The notes beneath the pieces were generated by a model. That model did not search any database. It was not told the origin of the DNA and worked only from the letters and a program-made list of their open reading frames with translations. The position numbers and the translations under genes are program-made. Shown here one piece after another: positions 20,620-50,899 of a stretch of 64,000 nt of DNA; the first letter of the stretch is position 1, and the number at the start of each line of letters is the position of its first letter. This DNA is from Bacteroidota bacterium (GTDB lineage Bacteria > Bacteroidota > Ignavibacteria > Kapaibacteriales > UBA2268), in contig SCSM01000001.1 of assembly GCA_004322215.1 (NCBI GenBank), positions 1 through 64,000 on the forward strand, in the 5' to 3' direction.

Positions 20620-21744
20620 ATGAGTTTTAAAATTAAGAGTTACCGTAAATCAATTTTTAGATTATTTTTAAGTACATTATTTGTTAGTTTAATATTTACT
20701 ATTTATTATTCATCATATAAAATAGTTGAAAAATACATTTCAGGAATCAGTGAGAATGTTATTATAACCGCAGTTGTAAAAGAGGATGTACCGGATGATT
20801 CATTGGCTACTACTGTAAAAGAAATCAGGAAGTATTATTGGGTAAAGAATGTACGTTTGATTAAACCGGAGAAGGGGCTTAGTAAGACAGACAGCAGTAT
20901 GGGAGGAATCCCCGGTGATTTGCTGCCCGAAAATCCGCTTCCCGCTCTGATAATAGTTACGATAAAAGAAGATTATCTGAATAAATTCAATTTGGCAAAA
21001 TATAATCTTCTTTTGAAGAGAATTGATATTGTCGGGAGTACAATGCAAAGGAAGGATTATGCTGATACAGTGTTTCTGATAAAAAGCCAGTTCTCTGTAT
21101 TATCAATCTTAATTGGAGTATTATTAGTGCTGATTGTTTTATTGATAATTTTCCTTTCGATCAATCCCGAATTTATAAAATCCGAACATTCGATTGCAAT
21201 TACTACAGAAATTGAAGAATACAACAGGACAGCAAAAGAAATTTTCGAATTGGTGTCATCAGTTGCATCAATTAGCATTGTTGTTTCGTCGGGAATAATT
21301 TATTTATTATGGTACCTGTTTGTTGGGAATCTACCCTGGTTTGAAGGAACAAGCTGGCAGATTTTATTATGGAATTTAGCATTTGTAATATTTACTTTTG
21401 AGTTGGTTAACCTGGTGCTATTTCTCACATATAAGCCGAAGAGGGGAGTAATAACAAAAGACGAATTACAAATTACAAATGAAGCTGAAAGCGAGGTTGA
21501 AGTAAAAACAAAAGACGAATTACAAATTACAAATGAATCCGAAAGTGAGGTGGAAGTAATAACAAATGTCGAATTACTAATTACAAATGAAGCCGAAAAC
21601 GAGGTTGAAGAATTAACAATTGAAAAATCACAATTAACAATAGATAAGCAGGGAGAAGAAAGACAAGGAGATTCCCTGATTCAAAATTCTGAGAGTCCTG
21701 TGGTCAATAAAGAAGAAGAGAATTGGGAAGATGACATTACTTGA
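20620..21744 (+). CDS. FtsX-like membrane protein with a repetitive cytoplasmic tail
   Basis: This 374-residue protein has a membrane span near the N-terminus (FRLFLSTLFVSLIFTIYYSS) and a ~120-residue extracytoplasmic domain containing LPENPLPALIIVTI, the FtsX-type NPLP element. Three more spans lie around 160-185, 210-240 and 250-270. This is FtsX topology; FtsX with FtsE activates wall hydrolases at division. No ftsE is near and the match is by topology and one motif. The tail after ~275 is three 18-residue repeats (KDELQITNEAESEVEVKT type) plus LTIEKSQLTIDKQ, clearly repeat-derived DNA. It overlaps lptG by 14 bases. Confidence 0.55.
   Translation: MSFKIKSYRKSIFRLFLSTLFVSLIFTIYYSSYKIVEKYISGISENVIITAVVKEDVPDDSLATTVKEIRKYYWVKNVRLIKPEKGLSKTDSSMGGIPGDLLPENPLPALIIVTIKEDYLNKFNLAKYNLLLKRIDIVGSTMQRKDYADTVFLIKSQFSVLSILIGVLLVLIVLLIIFLSINPEFIKSEHSIAITTEIEEYNRTAKEIFELVSSVASISIVVSSGIIYLLWYLFVGNLPWFEGTSWQILLWNLAFVIFTFELVNLVLFLTYKPKRGVITKDELQITNEAESEVEVKTKDELQITNESESEVEVITNVELLITNEAENEVEELTIEKSQLTIDKQGEERQGDSLIQNSESPVVNKEEENWEDDIT
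21454..21615. repeat. Three tandem 54-base coding repeats
   Basis: Units begin at 21454, 21508 and 21562, each 54 bases (18 codons). Each contains a GAATTACAAATTACAAATGA-like core, i.e. the AATTACA heptamer family, followed by an acidic block (EAESEVEV). Unit 3 is the most diverged. Confidence 0.92.
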
Positions 21745-22971: not shown

Positions 22972-23763
22972 ATGAAAAATATTGATACTCTTTCTTCCCT
23001 CGACGGCAGGGCGACTCTGGCTGAAATTTATAATGAGGTAAGGTTTGAGAAGCAGCTTTCAAACTTTTCAACCTTATTATTGACCTGGAGAATTTGCATT
23101 AGGGAACGTGAATTATTCAGGTATTTTAAAAAAGATGTAACTGTATTACATCCGCTGGGATTGTTTTCAGGCACCGGTTTATGGATGGAAGAGATTTTGA
23201 ACCGTTACTATTTTACTACAATCAATTCCTTCGTTTATTTTGGTGCTGCAATTTTACTTGTCCTGATTGGTTTGAGAAGATTTACTGATTATATTAATCC
23301 CGATATAGTGCTTGGAGGTGTGGCGTTCGAAGCATTGATGCTGATATTCTTATTCATTGTGATGCTTTTTACACCAAGCGAAGAACTTGAAACATTAAAA
23401 GCAAGAACGAGTGATAATCAAAATACAATAGAAGACCTGATAGTGGAAGTCGGTGAAATCAGCAGGGATTTTGCCGCTGTTGTAACTCAATTAGAAAAGT
23501 TGTCTGATTCATACCAGGAGGTATTGAAACAACAAAGCAATCTGACTTTTTTAATTGGAAAGCTAACAGAAAATTATTCAAATGCATCGGCTCCTAATCC
23601 ACAGATGCTCGAAATTATGAAGGAAACTAACTTTGCTTTGTCTGAATTTAAGAATACAGTCGGTAATCTGAATAGTGCCGCTGAATTGCTGAAGCGTGAG
23701 CAAATTGAGATTGCAGTAAGGAAAGAAGTTGAGAGGGTTTTGGTTAACAGAGTAACTCAGTAA
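22972..23763 (+). CDS. GldL-like T9SS motor protein candidate
   Basis: This 263-residue protein has two adjacent membrane spans, ~86-101 (SFVYFGAAILLVLIGL) and ~112-133 (GGVAFEALMLIFLFIVMLF), then a long soluble helical region (~135-255). GldL of the type IX secretion motor has the same plan: span, short loop, span with an in-membrane Glu in a (V/L)xxEAL context, then a coiled-coil tail. Here the Glu is E120. The N-terminus carries ~80 extra residues that GldL lacks. The next gene fits GldM. Several secreted proteins in this window carry T9SS signals, so such a motor is expected in the genome. The call is from topology and a short motif only. TATGTTTG at 22855-22862 may be the promoter. Confidence 0.55.
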   Translation: MKNIDTLSSLDGRATLAEIYNEVRFEKQLSNFSTLLLTWRICIRERELFRYFKKDVTVLHPLGLFSGTGLWMEEILNRYYFTTINSFVYFGAAILLVLIGLRRFTDYINPDIVLGGVAFEALMLIFLFIVMLFTPSEELETLKARTSDNQNTIEDLIVEVGEISRDFAAVVTQLEKLSDSYQEVLKQQSNLTFLIGKLTENYSNASAPNPQMLEIMKETNFALSEFKNTVGNLNSAAELLKREQIEIAVRKEVERVLVNRVTQ

Positions 23764-23813
23764 ATTCTGAATTCAGACCTTTGAATTCTGAATAAATTAA
23801 TTAGTTAAGAAAA

Positions 23814-25304
23814 ATGAAATTAAGATATAGAAAATCTATTGAAATATATTTTGTGTTGTACCTGGCTGCACTGATTTTCCTATTACCTTCACCTGAAGAC
23901 GACAAAAAAAAAGCAGATGAAAATAATTCCAAAGTATTTCAGATTCCTTTTTCGATACAACCTGAAAAAACAACGTTGAATTGCAGATTGATTCTCGATT
24001 CATCAGGAATTAAAATTATGTCCATTGATTCGATGAATACCGTGATTTATTTCGGAGATGTCGAGAAAGTTGATTTTGAATTCACTATCGAAGACCCGAT
24101 GCTGAGACAAAAGCTTTTTTTAAAAAACGAAGCAGACACATCAAATCCATATTTCAGGTTTGTTGATAACAAGGAATCCCAATCAGCAGTATTCTTCTGG
24201 AGTCCCCCGATTTTTGAAAGAGCAAACAAGACGTATAATGTTATTGTAACAGCTTATGCTACGCTTAAAGATGAGAGTATAGAAAAATCTGAATTATATC
24301 AAACGAACAGAATTATTAAGGCACAGACCAAATTCAGCTTGAATATGATTTATATGAATGCCGATTTGGTTGCAAGCAATCAAGCAAATTCTCAGAATCA
24401 GAACGGAACAAATACCGGGTTTACAAGTCAAAATCAGGTTTTTTCAGGTTTTCAACCTTCAGGTGAAATTGAAATAAAACCTGAACAGGGGTATATTAAA
24501 TCATTCGCTTATAATAAATGGACTAATACTGTTAACATTTACGGCGGTATTATTGGAAAGGATTTAATTAATCCCCGAATAAAAACACTACCAGATAAAG
24601 AAGATAATGGAGGTACGGCATCTATTTTAAAAATTGAGCAAAACCGGATTATTATTGGTGGAACAACTCCCGGATATGGTAAATTGAGAGTACTTTTTAC
24701 AGCCATCTCAAAATTTGATAAAAAAGAACATAGCGTTGATTTTATTGTTTTGACTGAAAAATACCAGGAACCGTTGTTTGAAAGAACAATGTATCCTGAA
24801 AAAACCTATACTATTGACCCAAGAATACCATTATTATTAGGTAATGAAATAAAAGCATTAATAAGAGATGAAAAAACAGTTCGGGTGCAAAGTGAACAGG
24901 GTAGTCAGTTCCAGTTTACTCCTGACATCAACGATACAAATCAAATATTTACTTTGGAATGTTATGTAGATGGAAACTTAATAGGACAAAAGCATCAAAT
25001 AAGGGTTTTGAGCTATCCTAACCCGGTAATAAAAGATGTACAGTATATAAGAAAAGGTGAAGTGAATATTTTAACTAATTCTTATGGATTATATAATGGC
25101 AAGGATAATCTTGCAGAAATAGAAGTAGAAGGTAATGCAATTGTACGTGAGTTAAGGGGGAGAATGCCAGATAAACCCGATAATATAACTAATGTACAGA
25201 TATTCAAGTGTACTCCGAGAAATCTGTCACAGCCATTTTCCTTCAGGATGTATGTAATGGATTCAAGAGGCAAGAAATCTGCACCGAGAAACTTTGAAGA
25301 GTAA
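23814..25304 (+). CDS. GldM-like T9SS motor protein candidate
   Basis: This 496-residue protein has one N-terminal span (IEIYFVLYLAALIFLLP, ~9-25), with a short basic cytoplasmic head and the rest predicted periplasmic. The remainder is beta-rich with Ig-like segments (GYIKSFAYNKWTNTVNIYGG, YPEKTYTIDPRIPLLL, RVLSYPNPVIKDVQYI). GldM of the T9SS motor is about 510 residues with one N-terminal span and stacked periplasmic domains, the last ones Ig-like, so length and order fit. It follows the GldL-like gene after 50 bases, as in gldLM operons. gldN does not follow; a tolC-like gene does. Function is inferred from topology, size and order. Confidence 0.5.
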   Translation: MKLRYRKSIEIYFVLYLAALIFLLPSPEDDKKKADENNSKVFQIPFSIQPEKTTLNCRLILDSSGIKIMSIDSMNTVIYFGDVEKVDFEFTIEDPMLRQKLFLKNEADTSNPYFRFVDNKESQSAVFFWSPPIFERANKTYNVIVTAYATLKDESIEKSELYQTNRIIKAQTKFSLNMIYMNADLVASNQANSQNQNGTNTGFTSQNQVFSGFQPSGEIEIKPEQGYIKSFAYNKWTNTVNIYGGIIGKDLINPRIKTLPDKEDNGGTASILKIEQNRIIIGGTTPGYGKLRVLFTAISKFDKKEHSVDFIVLTEKYQEPLFERTMYPEKTYTIDPRIPLLLGNEIKALIRDEKTVRVQSEQGSQFQFTPDINDTNQIFTLECYVDGNLIGQKHQIRVLSYPNPVIKDVQYIRKGEVNILTNSYGLYNGKDNLAEIEVEGNAIVRELRGRMPDKPDNITNVQIFKCTPRNLSQPFSFRMYVMDSRGKKSAPRNFEE

Positions 25305-33904: not shown

Positions 33905-36900
33905 TTATCTCAACACCACAAACTTCACAACCTGATAATTTCCACCAGTACTGATTCTCATGAAATACATACCTGATAAAAGATTTGATGTATTAATCTC
34001 AAGTTTATGATTACCCTGTGACAAATTTGTTTTTTCTGATAGTAAAGCCAATTCATTTCCAAAGGAATTGAACAAAGAAATAGAAACAGTTTCTTCTTTC
34101 AGATTGCTATAAGTCAAAGTTGCAATGTCATCGCAGGGATTCGGTGAAATTTGAATGTTATAATTAAATGAACCGTCATCAACATTAACAGGATTATTCA
34201 CGGTAAAAACTGCAAACGCTCCAGTACTTGTGATTGATGTTCTAACGTAATAATTGACTGAATCCACGACACCACCAAGCAGGTTCCACTTCAATGAATC
34301 TTCATTCCATTTGAATATGCGAAGCCAGTCCTGTGGTTTGCGTTTAAGTTCTTCGGGAGAATATCCTATTTGCAGCATAGATGGTTTTTCTGTACTAATC
34401 GGAAACGGATATGTCGTAATTGAATGTACATTGCCTGATTGTTCTGCATCTAAATCTAATCCGTTTCTACTTGTAAGGAAGCCGCATGATAAAATTGCAA
34501 ATTTTGAAATTGTATCATTCGTCTGGTCAAGATATAAATTTACATCCCCATCGGGTCCGGTAATAAAAGAAGAAAAGCCAGTTATAGAATAACTGATTGG
34601 TACAAAGAATGAATCCTGTGAATCATCATAAGCATTTATTGATAATAATCCTCTTTTATTTAATGTCGTATCAAAAGTACAACTGTAAATAAGTTGATTA
34701 TTGTCGAAAGTCAAATCCCTGAAATCAGTAAAATCCAATCCGGTAGGTAATTCAAGTCTTGGAGATTGTGAAAATTCCTTGTTCACATAAGACTTGAAAT
34801 TAAGATTTGCATTTTCATCAAATTCCCATATATTAACCTGATTAAAGTACCCATTTACTTTTCTCATAATAATTTCATTCGCATCGTCAACTAATGTTTG
34901 TTCCTTCTTCTTATCAACTCCCGACACACTTTTGACTTTTTCAATTTGTGTATAAATTACATTTGAATCCCTATCAATAGTAACCATATTTAGTACATCA
35001 TCAATATTAGCACCTATTACTTTGAATGAACCGTCAGAAGTATTCATACCTTGTTGTATAATACTTTTAGGTTTGTATAAATCAATCCAGGTGCGAATTA
35101 AATCATTGCCTGCTGCGTCTTTAACTCTAATATTATAATCCCCGGCACCTGTATTTTTATCATAAATATTTGTAATAAGTTCCTTTCCAACATTCATTAT
35201 TGGTCCAGGCAAAAATGTTGACCCGGGATTTAATGTTCTTTCGGTGGGTTTAATAATAGGGCATAAAACACCATTATTAGTTTTTTCATATTCAGTTTCA
35301 AAATCTGTCCAACAATCTTTTATATTATAATACCATTGTTCTGTGATTTTATAAGAATCATTTGGATACCTTGTTGAGTTGGACATTTCGGAGGACCAAT
35401 CTCCAAATCCTGGATATTGAGTATCCATAAACCCGAAATTATAATTAAATAATATTGCAGGTTCAGCAATTGCTCTCCCAGCTCCATTAAGATACTTATA
35501 CTCATCACTAAAACCAAACAAATAATGCCCAAGCTCATGACCTATTGTTGTCCAAAAATCATCATTAGATTTTATGAGCCAGTCGTTTTGAGAAGTAAAG
35601 TATCTTGTATTATTGGTACTACCGAACCACTTACGGGGCATGTTAACATGGATGTCTTCATCAGTGCTGAAAATACCCCCTTTCTGAAGAAAATACATGG
35701 TATAAGGTACGAAATTATTGTTTGCTAACACACATATATCACATTCATCCCATTTCTGTTTATTATCATATATGTCAATTTGATTAAAGAATAATTGTCC
35801 ATCCGTAACATCATAATAATAATTCGATAATTCCTTTAACCAATTTGCAAGACTGTCAATATATTCACGCTTGGCATCCCATTCTAAGGAAATAATCAAA
35901 TTGAATTTTATCGTAGTATGGTCAACAATTAAAGTTGGATTCAAATCCGCACCAAGCTCGAAATATGAACGATTACCTACTCCATCAAATTTACCGTTAT
36001 CGAGTACAACATTGTACATTGTATCTCCGGCGCAGGAATCATGACCCGGTTTTACTGCTTTTCTTGAGAATGGATAATGTTCAACTTTTAGAGTGTCTCC
36101 GGCATAAGCTGACAGACTAAATTTCCCGGCGGCATCTGTTGTGATTGAATCAATTTTACAGCCATTCAAATATAGATAAAATAATTTTTCTGCAATTGGA
36201 TTGTTATTAATATCAACAAGGGTGATAGTGTATGGTTTATTACTTGCAATTACATCAGCCCACTGGACATCCTGAATATAGATTTTTTTCACATCTTTAT
36301 TCATTATTATTTGTCCATCTGAACATTCACGGGTGTATCCTAATGTTCCGTCTTCATCATTTTGGTATAATAATTTGCTACCATCCGAAGACCATGGGTT
36401 TAAAGCCCAATATTGCTTTGACGGGAAACCTGCGATGATACTGCCTATACCTCTGTCCCTACCTGAATTGCTTTTCTTGGGATTAGCCATGAAAATATGA
36501 ACTTTATTATTAAGTCCTGATACATTAAATGCCAAGGTCCTTCCTGTAGGTGAAAAGAAAAAGTTCTCAGGATGCTCGAATGAATAATTTTGAGTTTCAT
36601 AAATTGTTCTTACTTCACCGGATGATGTATTAACAACCAATATACCCTCTCTGCTTCTAGGATAGAGTGTAGTGTCGGGAGGAAATGTTATCTTATAATT
36701 GACTTGTCCATAACAGGCAATCATATCACCATTCTTAGACCAGCTAAGATGCCTTATGGTATTAGGATAAGAAGGACCAGCAACAAGATAGACCTTTCTT
36801 ACGAGGCTATCATCAACAGTGTTGTCTTCCATTGGTTTTACGAGCGGTTTTTCCTCACCGGTTGAAATTGAATAAATAAAAATCGCTGCACCCTTTAAAT

Positions 36901-37438
36901 ATGCAATTTTTGTTCCGTCAGGACTCAAAGCTCCTGCACCAAGACCAGGGTCAGATGCAGGATAATACTGGTCTCTAAGTTCCCCGATTTTTGTATCTGC
37001 ACCTGTAGATACATCAATGGACCTGCATTCAGAAACACCATTAGAAGGAGGTTTTTCGTAATATAATTTTCCTGAACTGCCAATCCATTGCGGATTAAAT
37101 CCTGTAATATCAAATCCGTTTATAGAATCTCCATTGGATGCTTTTCTGACAATTAATTTTGTTCCCTGAGGATTGGTTTCAAATCTTGCGAAGACATCAG
37201 AATTTCGTGAATACACAGGATAAGAAGCATAATAAACATTCTTCAGCCAATAGCTGTTATATGCAAAAGCAAAGCCACCGGAATTTAATGAATTTGTACC
37301 GTGAATTCCCGGTGGTTCTAAAGAGTTGCTTGACACAACAATTTTAAAGCTCTGAGCCGATAAATTTGAACTGAAAAATACAATTATTAATATCAATTCA
37401 ATAATTAGATTATACCTGTGCTTCATAATTCGCTCCAT
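33905..37438 (-). CDS. Secreted metallopeptidase-like protein with N-terminal propeller and T9SS sorting domain
   Basis: This 1177-residue protein has a signal peptide (IIELILIIVFFSSNLSAQS). Residues ~50-420 contain PD40/WD-like repeats (LGAGALSPDGTKIAYLKG, RHLSWSKNGDMIACYG, FFSPTGRTLAFN, NPWSSDGSKLLYQND), i.e. a beta-propeller. A carboxypeptidase-regulatory-like segment follows (ITLVDINNNPIAEKLFYLYL). At H634-E-L-G-H638 and D645-E-Y, the HExxHx6DEY arrangement matches the zinc sites of M64/CLCA-type metallopeptidases. The end (ISPNPCDDIATLTYSNLKEE and MYFMRISTGG...VKFVVLR) is a T9SS type A sorting domain, so it should be exported and attached or released at the surface. The substrate is unknown. 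An ATG 4 codons in is an alternative start. Confidence 0.82.
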   Translation of the reverse strand: MERIMKHRYNLIIELILIIVFFSSNLSAQSFKIVVSSNSLEPPGIHGTNSLNSGGFAFAYNSYWLKNVYYASYPVYSRNSDVFARFETNPQGTKLIVRKASNGDSINGFDITGFNPQWIGSSGKLYYEKPPSNGVSECRSIDVSTGADTKIGELRDQYYPASDPGLGAGALSPDGTKIAYLKGAAIFIYSISTGEEKPLVKPMEDNTVDDSLVRKVYLVAGPSYPNTIRHLSWSKNGDMIACYGQVNYKITFPPDTTLYPRSREGILVVNTSSGEVRTIYETQNYSFEHPENFFFSPTGRTLAFNVSGLNNKVHIFMANPKKSNSGRDRGIGSIIAGFPSKQYWALNPWSSDGSKLLYQNDEDGTLGYTRECSDGQIIMNKDVKKIYIQDVQWADVIASNKPYTITLVDINNNPIAEKLFYLYLNGCKIDSITTDAAGKFSLSAYAGDTLKVEHYPFSRKAVKPGHDSCAGDTMYNVVLDNGKFDGVGNRSYFELGADLNPTLIVDHTTIKFNLIISLEWDAKREYIDSLANWLKELSNYYYDVTDGQLFFNQIDIYDNKQKWDECDICVLANNNFVPYTMYFLQKGGIFSTDEDIHVNMPRKWFGSTNNTRYFTSQNDWLIKSNDDFWTTIGHELGHYLFGFSDEYKYLNGAGRAIAEPAILFNYNFGFMDTQYPGFGDWSSEMSNSTRYPNDSYKITEQWYYNIKDCWTDFETEYEKTNNGVLCPIIKPTERTLNPGSTFLPGPIMNVGKELITNIYDKNTGAGDYNIRVKDAAGNDLIRTWIDLYKPKSIIQQGMNTSDGSFKVIGANIDDVLNMVTIDRDSNVIYTQIEKVKSVSGVDKKKEQTLVDDANEIIMRKVNGYFNQVNIWEFDENANLNFKSYVNKEFSQSPRLELPTGLDFTDFRDLTFDNNQLIYSCTFDTTLNKRGLLSINAYDDSQDSFFVPISYSITGFSSFITGPDGDVNLYLDQTNDTISKFAILSCGFLTSRNGLDLDAEQSGNVHSITTYPFPISTEKPSMLQIGYSPEELKRKPQDWLRIFKWNEDSLKWNLLGGVVDSVNYYVRTSITSTGAFAVFTVNNPVNVDDGSFNYNIQISPNPCDDIATLTYSNLKEETVSISLFNSFGNELALLSEKTNLSQGNHKLEINTSNLLSGMYFMRISTGGNYQVVKFVVLR

Positions 37439-48475: not shown

Positions 48476-50899
48476 ATGTTGAATTTTAATTATAAATATT
48501 GTCTTTCTTTAATTATAATTCTTGCTGCGTTATCTTCTTATATTTTTTGTCAAACAATTGAAAATAAATCTGAAAATATATCATATCATTTAATAAGAAT
48601 TCATTTTGATTCTTCATATTCTTATAAGGATTTTCTAAAATCAGGTTTTGATTTGGAAGGAATAAATTTCAATAAAAGCTCGGTAGAACTTGCATTGAAT
48701 GATTATGAATTGAATGGAATCAAATTGAAAAAAATCAAATATGAAATACTCATTGATGATTATGAAAAATATATTGAAAATAAATTAAACAGTTCAAAAC
48801 AAAACATTCCTTTAATTTGCAGTGAAAAAAACTTCAAGATTGGCTCTATGGGCGGTTCTTATAAAATCGAGGAAGTTTATGCCGTTTTTGACTCGATGCG
48901 TAATAAATACCCGGATTATATGGCTAATCCGGAGGTAATCGGTTATACAATTGAAGACAGACCGATAATGGCTTATTGCTTTAGCAGTAAAAACGGATTG
49001 AATAAAAAAGAAGTATTAATCACTGCATTACATCATGCACGTGAGGGTGGCGGATTGACAACGGTAGTTTATTTTTTATGGAATTTGCTCGAAGGTATTG
49101 ATTCGGGTAATCCTGAATCATTATTTTTACTGAATAACAGGAAAATTTGGGTAATACCTGTTGTAAATCCCGATGGAGTTGCATTTAATGAATCGAGGTC
49201 ACCAAACGGTGGTGGGTTTTGGAGAAAGAACAGACGAAAAATAAATGATACGACTTATGGGGTTGACCTGAACCGGAATTATGGTCCACAGCAATTTTGG
49301 GAAGTTGGTAATAGCAGTTCGGCAACAGACCCAAGATATGATACATACAGAGGAGAATCTCCGTTTTCTGAACCTGAAACTCAGTCGGTTAGAGATTTTT
49401 GCATGAAGCACGATTTTAAAATTGCCTGTAATTATCATACATTCGGAGGACAAATAATTTTTCCATGGGGAGCATTGAGTAGTGAAACTTCTGATTCTAT
49501 CTGGTTCCGTTCGTTTACCGAAGATGTTACATTTAATAATAAATATAATTTTGGCAGGGGCATTCAGACTGTGGGTTATGAAGTATCGGGTGTTTCCGAT
49601 GATTGGATGTATTTAGCAACATCCGGTAAAGAGAAAATTTTTTCTATTACTCCTGAAGTAGGTTCTGTAATTGATGGATTTTGGCCCTTACCTGAGAGGT
49701 ATATTCCGATAGCCAAAGATAATTTATATATGAATTACCAATTATTATGGTCTGCCGGAACTAATCTGAGGCATGTGAAATCGGAATATGATTATGATTC
49801 ACTTAATAAAACAGGTGTACTCACTGTAACCGTAAAAAATATCGGAATTGATGATATGACATCATCTTCAAGCCTAATCATTAAATCCCTCGATTCCAAT
49901 GTTAAAATCGAATCACCTGAAAAAGATATTCTTCCTTTAATGTCAACAGAAACACAAACAGAGAGATTTAATATACCATATCCATATAATTTCAGAAATG
50001 GGAGTGAAGTTGCATTTACCTGTTCAATTATTCAGGATGGTATTGAACGTATAGATACCTTCAAACTGCAACTATACAGATATACAACAGTTAATATTTA
50101 TAAAGGCGGTTCGTTGGGAAGTGGTTGGAAAAACAATAACTGGAATACTTTTGAAGACAAGACAATAGGCAGAAAAATACTTACTGACAGCCCCGGCGGT
50201 AATTATACCGATATGAACAGTAATTATCTGATATATGATAAGCCGATTTCTATCACTGGAATTAACGCCACCTTGGAATTTAATACGCATTGGAGTTTGG
50301 AATCGAATTATGATGTTGTCTATATAGAAGCATCGTCTGATTTGGGTAAAACATGGAATAATTTAAGAGCATCAAGAATGAAGATGGGAGTTGGATTGAA
50401 TTACAGCCGCCAGGATTCGGGTAAATATGGATTTGACGGTTATCAGCCGGATTATATAAGACAAGAGTGCGATTTGTCTCAGTTTTTAAATAAAAGCATA
50501 ATTTTCAGATTTGGTATATTAAGCGATAATGCACTAAATTTTGACGGTATTTTTATGGATGATATTAAAATTCGCTTTTATGAGGATTTGACAGGTGTTA
50601 ATGAAGGTAAAGCAGGTACTGAAAATGATTATTTATCAATTGAATGTTATCCTTCACCTGTGAAAATTGGAGAGCCGGTTTCAGTATTCATTAATTCCGA
50701 TGAAAATAATGAATCCGAAAATGTAAAAATAACATTGTATAACTCTATCGGTGAGAAAATTTATTCGAGTGAAGATAATTTGATTTTAAATAATAAGAGT
50801 GTTGAAATATCAACAAAAAATATGACAGAAGGATTTTATTATTTACAGATTGAAGGACGAACAAAAGTATATAATCGTAAAATCATTGCAATCCGTTAA
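48476..50899 (+). CDS. Secreted M14 zinc carboxypeptidase with T9SS sorting domain
   Basis: The 807-residue protein has a signal (LSLIIILAALSSYIFCQ). The M14 catalytic core holds H187-A-R-E190 (in ALHHAREGGG), GVDLNRNYG, H321 in NYHTFGG, and E394 in TPEVGSVID. Two beta-rich domains follow, and residues ~720-807 (IECYPSPVKIGEPVSVF, ITLYNSIGEKIYS, TEGFYYLQIEG, KIIAIR) are a T9SS type A sorting domain. It should trim peptide C-termini outside the cell. The start codon lies in a GAGTGTTGAATGTTGAATTT repeat 20 bases past the hydrolase stop. Confidence 0.9.
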   Translation: MLNFNYKYCLSLIIILAALSSYIFCQTIENKSENISYHLIRIHFDSSYSYKDFLKSGFDLEGINFNKSSVELALNDYELNGIKLKKIKYEILIDDYEKYIENKLNSSKQNIPLICSEKNFKIGSMGGSYKIEEVYAVFDSMRNKYPDYMANPEVIGYTIEDRPIMAYCFSSKNGLNKKEVLITALHHAREGGGLTTVVYFLWNLLEGIDSGNPESLFLLNNRKIWVIPVVNPDGVAFNESRSPNGGGFWRKNRRKINDTTYGVDLNRNYGPQQFWEVGNSSSATDPRYDTYRGESPFSEPETQSVRDFCMKHDFKIACNYHTFGGQIIFPWGALSSETSDSIWFRSFTEDVTFNNKYNFGRGIQTVGYEVSGVSDDWMYLATSGKEKIFSITPEVGSVIDGFWPLPERYIPIAKDNLYMNYQLLWSAGTNLRHVKSEYDYDSLNKTGVLTVTVKNIGIDDMTSSSSLIIKSLDSNVKIESPEKDILPLMSTETQTERFNIPYPYNFRNGSEVAFTCSIIQDGIERIDTFKLQLYRYTTVNIYKGGSLGSGWKNNNWNTFEDKTIGRKILTDSPGGNYTDMNSNYLIYDKPISITGINATLEFNTHWSLESNYDVVYIEASSDLGKTWNNLRASRMKMGVGLNYSRQDSGKYGFDGYQPDYIRQECDLSQFLNKSIIFRFGILSDNALNFDGIFMDDIKIRFYEDLTGVNEGKAGTENDYLSIECYPSPVKIGEPVSVFINSDENNESENVKITLYNSIGEKIYSSEDNLILNNKSVEISTKNMTEGFYYLQIEGRTKVYNRKIIAIR

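Follow-up and report, generated by a model that had tools for sequence, protein, structure and literature searches.

Two adjacent genes, here called L1 and M1, lie within the 64,000-nucleotide stretch of an Ignavibacteria genome that was analyzed (herein referred to as the window) and encode proteins that, from profile comparison, are likely to be remote homologues of GldL and GldM. Most likely these proteins form an inner-membrane, proton-driven motor of the GldLM kind, and on balance we favor the explanation that this motor is one of two paralogous sets belonging to a diverged T9SS. Both sets probably belong to a single T9SS machine; the other set, L2/M2, is the more widely distributed, and L1/M1 would be an additional motor, perhaps the secondary of the two. 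A first-pass annotation of the window had proposed a diverged GldL–GldM pair at this position; the observation of the pair itself is confirmed and its interpretation partly supported, and the reading was right in kind and incomplete, the paralogous set not being visible from the window.

The L1 and M1 open reading frames share a strand and are separated by 50 bp, with L1 first (table 1), which is the order of gldLM. L1 comprises approximately 80 N-terminal residues, a hairpin and a long helical tail, with E120 in the second helix of a structure model of low confidence (mean pLDDT 58); the Glu is kept in all 39 distinct L1 sequences, and the turn position of R103 is occupied by Arg in 37 and by Lys in 1 of the 39. 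The model of M1 (mean pLDDT 75, pTM 0.43) has one N-terminal helix (residues 6–23) and four beta domains, the limits of which we set at about residues 45–181, 217–315, 320–401 and 402–496. Residue 6 of M1 is basic in most sequences (R in 25 and K in 4 of 30), in a stretch where the alignment to GldM R9 is not secure. The frames and models agree with what had been read from the letters alone: two close spans, an in-membrane E120, a helical tail and an N-terminal extension unlike GldL in the first gene, and one N-terminal span with a long Ig-like periplasmic part of similar length to GldM in the second.

Table 1. Coordinates of the L1/M1 gene pair and its features in the window
Feature	Position	Strand	Basis
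L1, GldL-like protein, 263 aa	22972..23763	+	ORF, conserved in relatives; GldL profile match, P 3.3e-6
L1 two-span hairpin, residues 85–132	23224..23367	+	Low-confidence model helices 85–104 and 110–132; hairpin alone vs GldL, P ~4e-5
E120 codon, invariant Glu aligned with GldL E49	23329..23331	+	39/39 L1 sequences; alignment
M1, GldM-like protein, 496 aa	23814..25304	+	ORF, conserved; GldM profile match over 163 columns, P 5e-4
M1 single N-terminal span, residues 6–23, with invariant E10	23829..23882	+	Model; E10 in 30/30
M1 periplasmic part, four predicted Ig-like domains (boundaries ours)	23946..25301	+	Model, mean pLDDT 75; generic Ig PDB matches

The window neighbors of L1/M1 are not T9SS genes. 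Downstream of the pair lie a TolC-like gene, an RDD gene and an HlyD/ABC/MacB-type exporter, and FtsX-like and LptG-like genes are found elsewhere in the neighborhood; at this locus neither a gldK before the pair nor a gldN after it was found, and the lack of a following gldN had been pointed out previously. The FtsX-like protein (20620–21744), which adjoins the LptG-like gene, carries a C-terminal near-repeat tail (ITNE/EVEV). Of three T9SS cargo proteins that had been counted in the window, two were recovered by a sorting domain (CTD) over cut-off (33905–37438 and 48476–50899) among the nine window ORFs scanned, and the third was not identified.

The relationship to GldL and GldM was assessed with profiles built from 20 Bacteroidota gld clusters, 19 of which gave a GldL. 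Of the nine reference families that resulted, five (GldL, GldM, GldN, GldK and PorP) were confirmed by one member each. Fourteen lineage families (L1, M1, a first L2 set and 11 neighbors of the window pair) were compared with these nine and their reversed copies, giving 252 comparisons; hhalign P values are uncalibrated for membrane hairpins, and weight was placed on rank and on the reversed controls. L1 against GldL ranked first (P 3.3e-6, hhalign probability 87.8) and M1 against GldM second (P 5e-4, probability 31.5, with an alignment of 163 columns in the middle domains), whereas the best of all the remaining comparisons reached P 0.0038. The L1 signal resides in the hairpin, which by itself matched GldL at P ~4e-5 (reversed control 0.39); the tail adds little (P 0.003–0.005, reversed 0.01), and the N-terminal part gave no profile signal. 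The profile alignment is collinear and places E120 on GldL E49, with a counterpart Glu in 28/28 L2 and 19/19 GldL sequences. This second-span Glu of GldL is reported to be strictly conserved, and SprB secretion to depend on it (PMC8986121). In our reference sequences the GldL turn residue K27 and GldM R9, the Arg before the span, are likewise present in 19/19.

Curated models did not recover the pair. TIGR03513 (GldL) matched neither L1 nor anything in its own genome, whereas a canonical GldL reaches 260.5 (cut-off 68.3), and TIGR03517 (GldM) matched neither M1 nor, over cut-off, any protein in the 100 same-class genomes searched, whereas a canonical GldM reaches 395.9 (cut-off 180); it is for this reason that the genes are not filed as GldL or GldM.

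L1 resembles GldL/PorL in its two-span hairpin, its second-span Glu at the position of E49, its basic turn residue, its cytoplasmic helical tail and the location of its gene directly before an M gene; it differs in the ~80 extra N-terminal residues, in a longer second span, in lacking an equivalent of E59 at the corresponding alignment position and in leaving TIGR03513 unmatched. The first periplasmic domain of GldM is helical, whereas that of M1 is beta in the model, and M1 differs further in the invariant E10 at the start of its span and in leaving TIGR03517 unmatched. M1 is nonetheless similar to GldM/PorM in its single N-terminal span, its length, the profile similarity of its middle domains and its four-domain periplasmic part, four such domains being described for GldM (PMC9389320). 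A more general likeness would be to MotAB, ExbBD and TolQR, through the presumed ion-driven 5:2 principle (PMC9389320); Pfam/NCBIfam scans with L1 and M1, taken to E 1, listed none of the MotA/ExbB/TolQ or ExbD/MotB families.

Both genes are conserved. Six relatives on named contigs, whose records bear the titles Ignavibacteria, Ignavibacteriae or Bacteroidetes bacterium, align over their full length with 39–91% identity for L1 and 28–77% for M1, and both genes occur in 34/34 genomes of the same order, which together argue that L1/M1 is more than a chance occurrence. The L1 profile matched 74 of 197 same-class genomes at E 0.001. By our reading 54 of the 197 encode true L1: all 34 of the order (the window genome included), 5 of family f10, 12 of f43 and 3 of f49. 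The remaining 20 matches are weak (E 2.8e-9 or worse), those that could be placed being mostly L2 paralogues, and the match in genome G116 is confined to the tail. M1 was found in 43/197 same-class genomes, again including 34/34 of the order, and by coordinates the two genes adjoin in 30 of these 34 (the exceptions being G109, G299, G305 and G325). L1 is absent from families such as f12 that have SprA together with L2/M2. In one f10 genome (G128), barrel-like proteins follow the L1/M1 pair.

GldLM has been described as exclusive to Bacteroidetes (PMC9389320), and a 2016 survey (PMC4793230) reported T9SS in 60 of 97 Bacteroidetes genomes and found none in other clades. In our samples, which were draws of 61–198 genomes, SprA was present in 196/197 same-class genomes (194 over cut-off). 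No GldL scored over cut-off in any of the 197 same-class genomes, no GldM or GldN in any of 100 and no GldK in any of 61, and none of 14 control genomes responded to the GldL, GldM or GldN models. The GldL genome search had its positive control in the phylum, where 48 of 198 genomes, all outside this class, scored over cut-off; for GldM, GldN and GldK the control consisted of models scoring canonical proteins of loci L101 and L102 over cut-off, the genome searches being within the class only. This distribution is among the points that support the first-pass interpretation.

Several weak candidates for canonical components were set aside. A class hit to GldL in G009 (2.4e-4) covered only the tail and was under cut-off; weak class hits to GldM (1/100 at E 0.01) and GldN (2/100) were, by eye, not beside L/M genes; and GldK hits in 26/61 genomes at E 0.001 were all under cut-off and probably reflect a general domain, 4/14 control genomes also responding. 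S3 proteins of the f6/f11-type clusters matched GldN at P 4.6e-5 in an alignment that starts at the signal peptide and extends little beyond it.

In the window genome itself a PorW/SprE-like gene follows SprA and a PorU2-like gene is present, and because both are under cut-off, the whole T9SS of this genome is read as diverged. The T9SS of the lineage comprises SprA, a PorU2-like sortase, a PorW/SprE-like lipoprotein and CTD cargo, without recognizable canonical GldL, GldM or GldN. Families f5, f8, f9, f13, f14, f44–f48 and f51 have SprA and no convincing L1 or L2 (two f8 hits are marginal).

A separate gldLM elsewhere in the genome had been named as evidence that would speak against the first-pass interpretation; no canonical gldLM was detected, whereas a paralogous set, L2/M2, is present in the same genome. 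L1 searches recovered L2 paralogues on contigs C25 (446 aa) and C30 (332 aa), and the M2 search matched a 769-aa frame on contig C5. L1 and L2 have a hairpin in common (P 3.6e-17), and the M proteins of the two sets have a common N-terminal motif (P 2e-4 over 16 columns). The sets are also alike in their invariant Glu and stand consecutively in f43 and f49; they differ in that the N-terminal part of most L2 is longer (by eye, types ii and iii have two additional spans) and in the size of M2 (720–820 aa in the window's order). Compared with GldL by itself, L2 is not significant (P 0.056 whole, 0.16 trimmed). In a hairpin tree L1 stands apart from L2 under midpoint rooting, with an L1 support of only 0.23, and nothing rests on this tree.

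The L2 profile matched 83 of 197 class genomes by our reading, three of these being marginal or L1 itself (in G224 the match is the L1 gene), and 28 of 198 in a phylum draw of the same size, all in this class and one marginal. M2 was first seen as a family beside L2 in G216, and its search found 72/197 class genomes and 33/34 of the order. Of the 12 order loci read, 10 have a pair of related barrel-like genes after M2, and in the other two M2 lies beside L2. The barrel-like proteins have no family match, the barrel reading being by eye. The L2/M2 sets are unnamed in the family libraries searched.

The loci of the second set vary in content. In the window genome, contig C5 (L133:7391–14485) carries M2 (761 aa) and, after it, a pair of related barrel-like proteins of 567 and 486 aa and a 463-aa VWA-OmpA protein, with no informative family match for M2 or the barrel-like pair. 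Contig C25 (L068:8160–16915) carries in succession the 446-aa L2, a C25 peptidase of 1951 aa that is PorU2-like and has a sorting domain, and a FadL/PorV-like protein. In f6 and f11 (L100, L137, L139, L147), L2 is short (173–228 aa), M2 has 201–209 aa including a span, and a separate secreted protein, S1, of 363–381 aa is M1-like (P 2.2e-9); M appears to be split into two genes at these loci. Immediately after a type ii L2 gene in G059 comes the gene for a 1603-aa protein (L074:7645–12456) whose N-terminus looks ATPase-like by eye.

Gene order connects the sets with each other and with the secretion system. By our count, 12 of the 15 genomes of f43 and f49, two distant families, have L1, M1, L2 and M2 consecutively on a single contig, and the other three have them spread over two contigs; in G216 (f43) a barrel-like protein follows the quartet. 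In G302 the order is L1, M1, L2 and a C25 peptidase that the PorU2 and PorU models matched under cut-off. Of 20 further loci of the order, 10, G302 included, have L2 next to a C25 peptidase, as do the two loci read earlier. In G343, M2 comes after SprA with one ORF, on the other strand, between them. Taken together, these linkages connect L1/M1 with L2/M2, and each set with T9SS genes.

How the two sets divide the work is the point on which the main rival explanation differs. Because the paralogous set also occurs in SprA-positive families without L1, such as f12, L2/M2 may be the main T9SS motor and L1/M1 a second one; carried further, L2/M2 and its outer-membrane partners would be the T9SS motor, and L1/M1 a paralogous motor for another task, such as surface movement or outer-membrane upkeep. 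That L2 is the commoner (83 vs 54 of 197 genomes, with the three reservations noted above), that it lies beside C25 peptidases, that M2 follows SprA in G343 and that the window neighbors of L1/M1 are FtsX-like, LptG-like and exporter genes all fit such a division. However, L1–M1 stands in the same gene run as L2–M2 in most f43/f49 genomes and precedes L2 and the PorU2-like gene in G302, and it is L1, not L2, that has the significant match to GldL; we regard separate tasks as a serious explanation, yet distinctly the less probable one.

It is unlikely, in our judgment, that L1 and M1 are unrelated to GldLM altogether. In that case a coiled-coil protein with two spans would lie next to a protein of Ig repeats, and the resemblance would stem solely from membrane, coiled-coil and Ig bias. 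Chance similarity does arise with coiled coils and with Ig folds, and the P values carry the calibration caveat given above. Direct family scans assigned neither protein to a Pfam or NCBIfam family; L1 had matches of the coiled-coil type that are put down to chance, and M1 had no match. When the PDB was searched by sequence with the L1 profile, the matches listed were mostly coiled coils, and a hit to a GldL chain (7sax, E 0.5, tail only) was given no weight; the corresponding M1 search returned nothing credible. Foldseek and VIA-align with the M1 model gave generic Ig chains and no GldM/PorM chain among the matches listed, and the M1 fold search does not discriminate. Speaking against this explanation, the two expected pairs are precisely those that rank highest among the 252 comparisons, the hairpin matches GldL without the tail and the Glu at E120 is invariant.

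For the explanation that we favor, a GldLM-like motor forming one of two sets of a diverged T9SS, we count the top two profile ranks, the hairpin-only match, the invariant Glu, SprA without GldL and the gene linkages. Counted against it are the unmatched curated models, the weak M1–GldM comparison (probability 31.5), the beta first domain of M1, the families such as f12 with SprA and L2/M2 without L1, the non-T9SS window neighbors and the lack of a significant GldL match for L2. Under the favored explanation, several L1 subunits would surround paired M1 spans in the inner membrane, E120 would take up and release protons to drive movement, and the M1 rod of Ig-like domains would carry this movement through the periplasm towards the outer membrane. 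The gene pair, its conservation, the profile similarity, the invariant Glu, the linkage and the distribution are established here; we infer the complex, its stoichiometry and its proton use, and the role in secretion from genomic context. A broader proposal, which we put forward tentatively and with less confidence than the favored explanation, is that a class-level lineage operates a T9SS without canonical GldKLMN, two paralogous, non-canonical GldLM-like motors working on a single machine and being coupled to barrel-like and OmpA-type proteins of the outer membrane that take the place of the GldK/GldN ring.

Among the matches listed in a literature search (titles and abstract starts), we found no paper describing a GldLM substitute in Ignavibacteria. 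If true, our reading would explain why surveys that rely on profiles would overlook this lineage's motor. If the pairs power secretion, the motor can be kept while its sequence, its first periplasmic domain and its ring partners change, and the lineage would offer an outgroup for asking which T9SS motor parts are essential and how 5:2 motors diversify.
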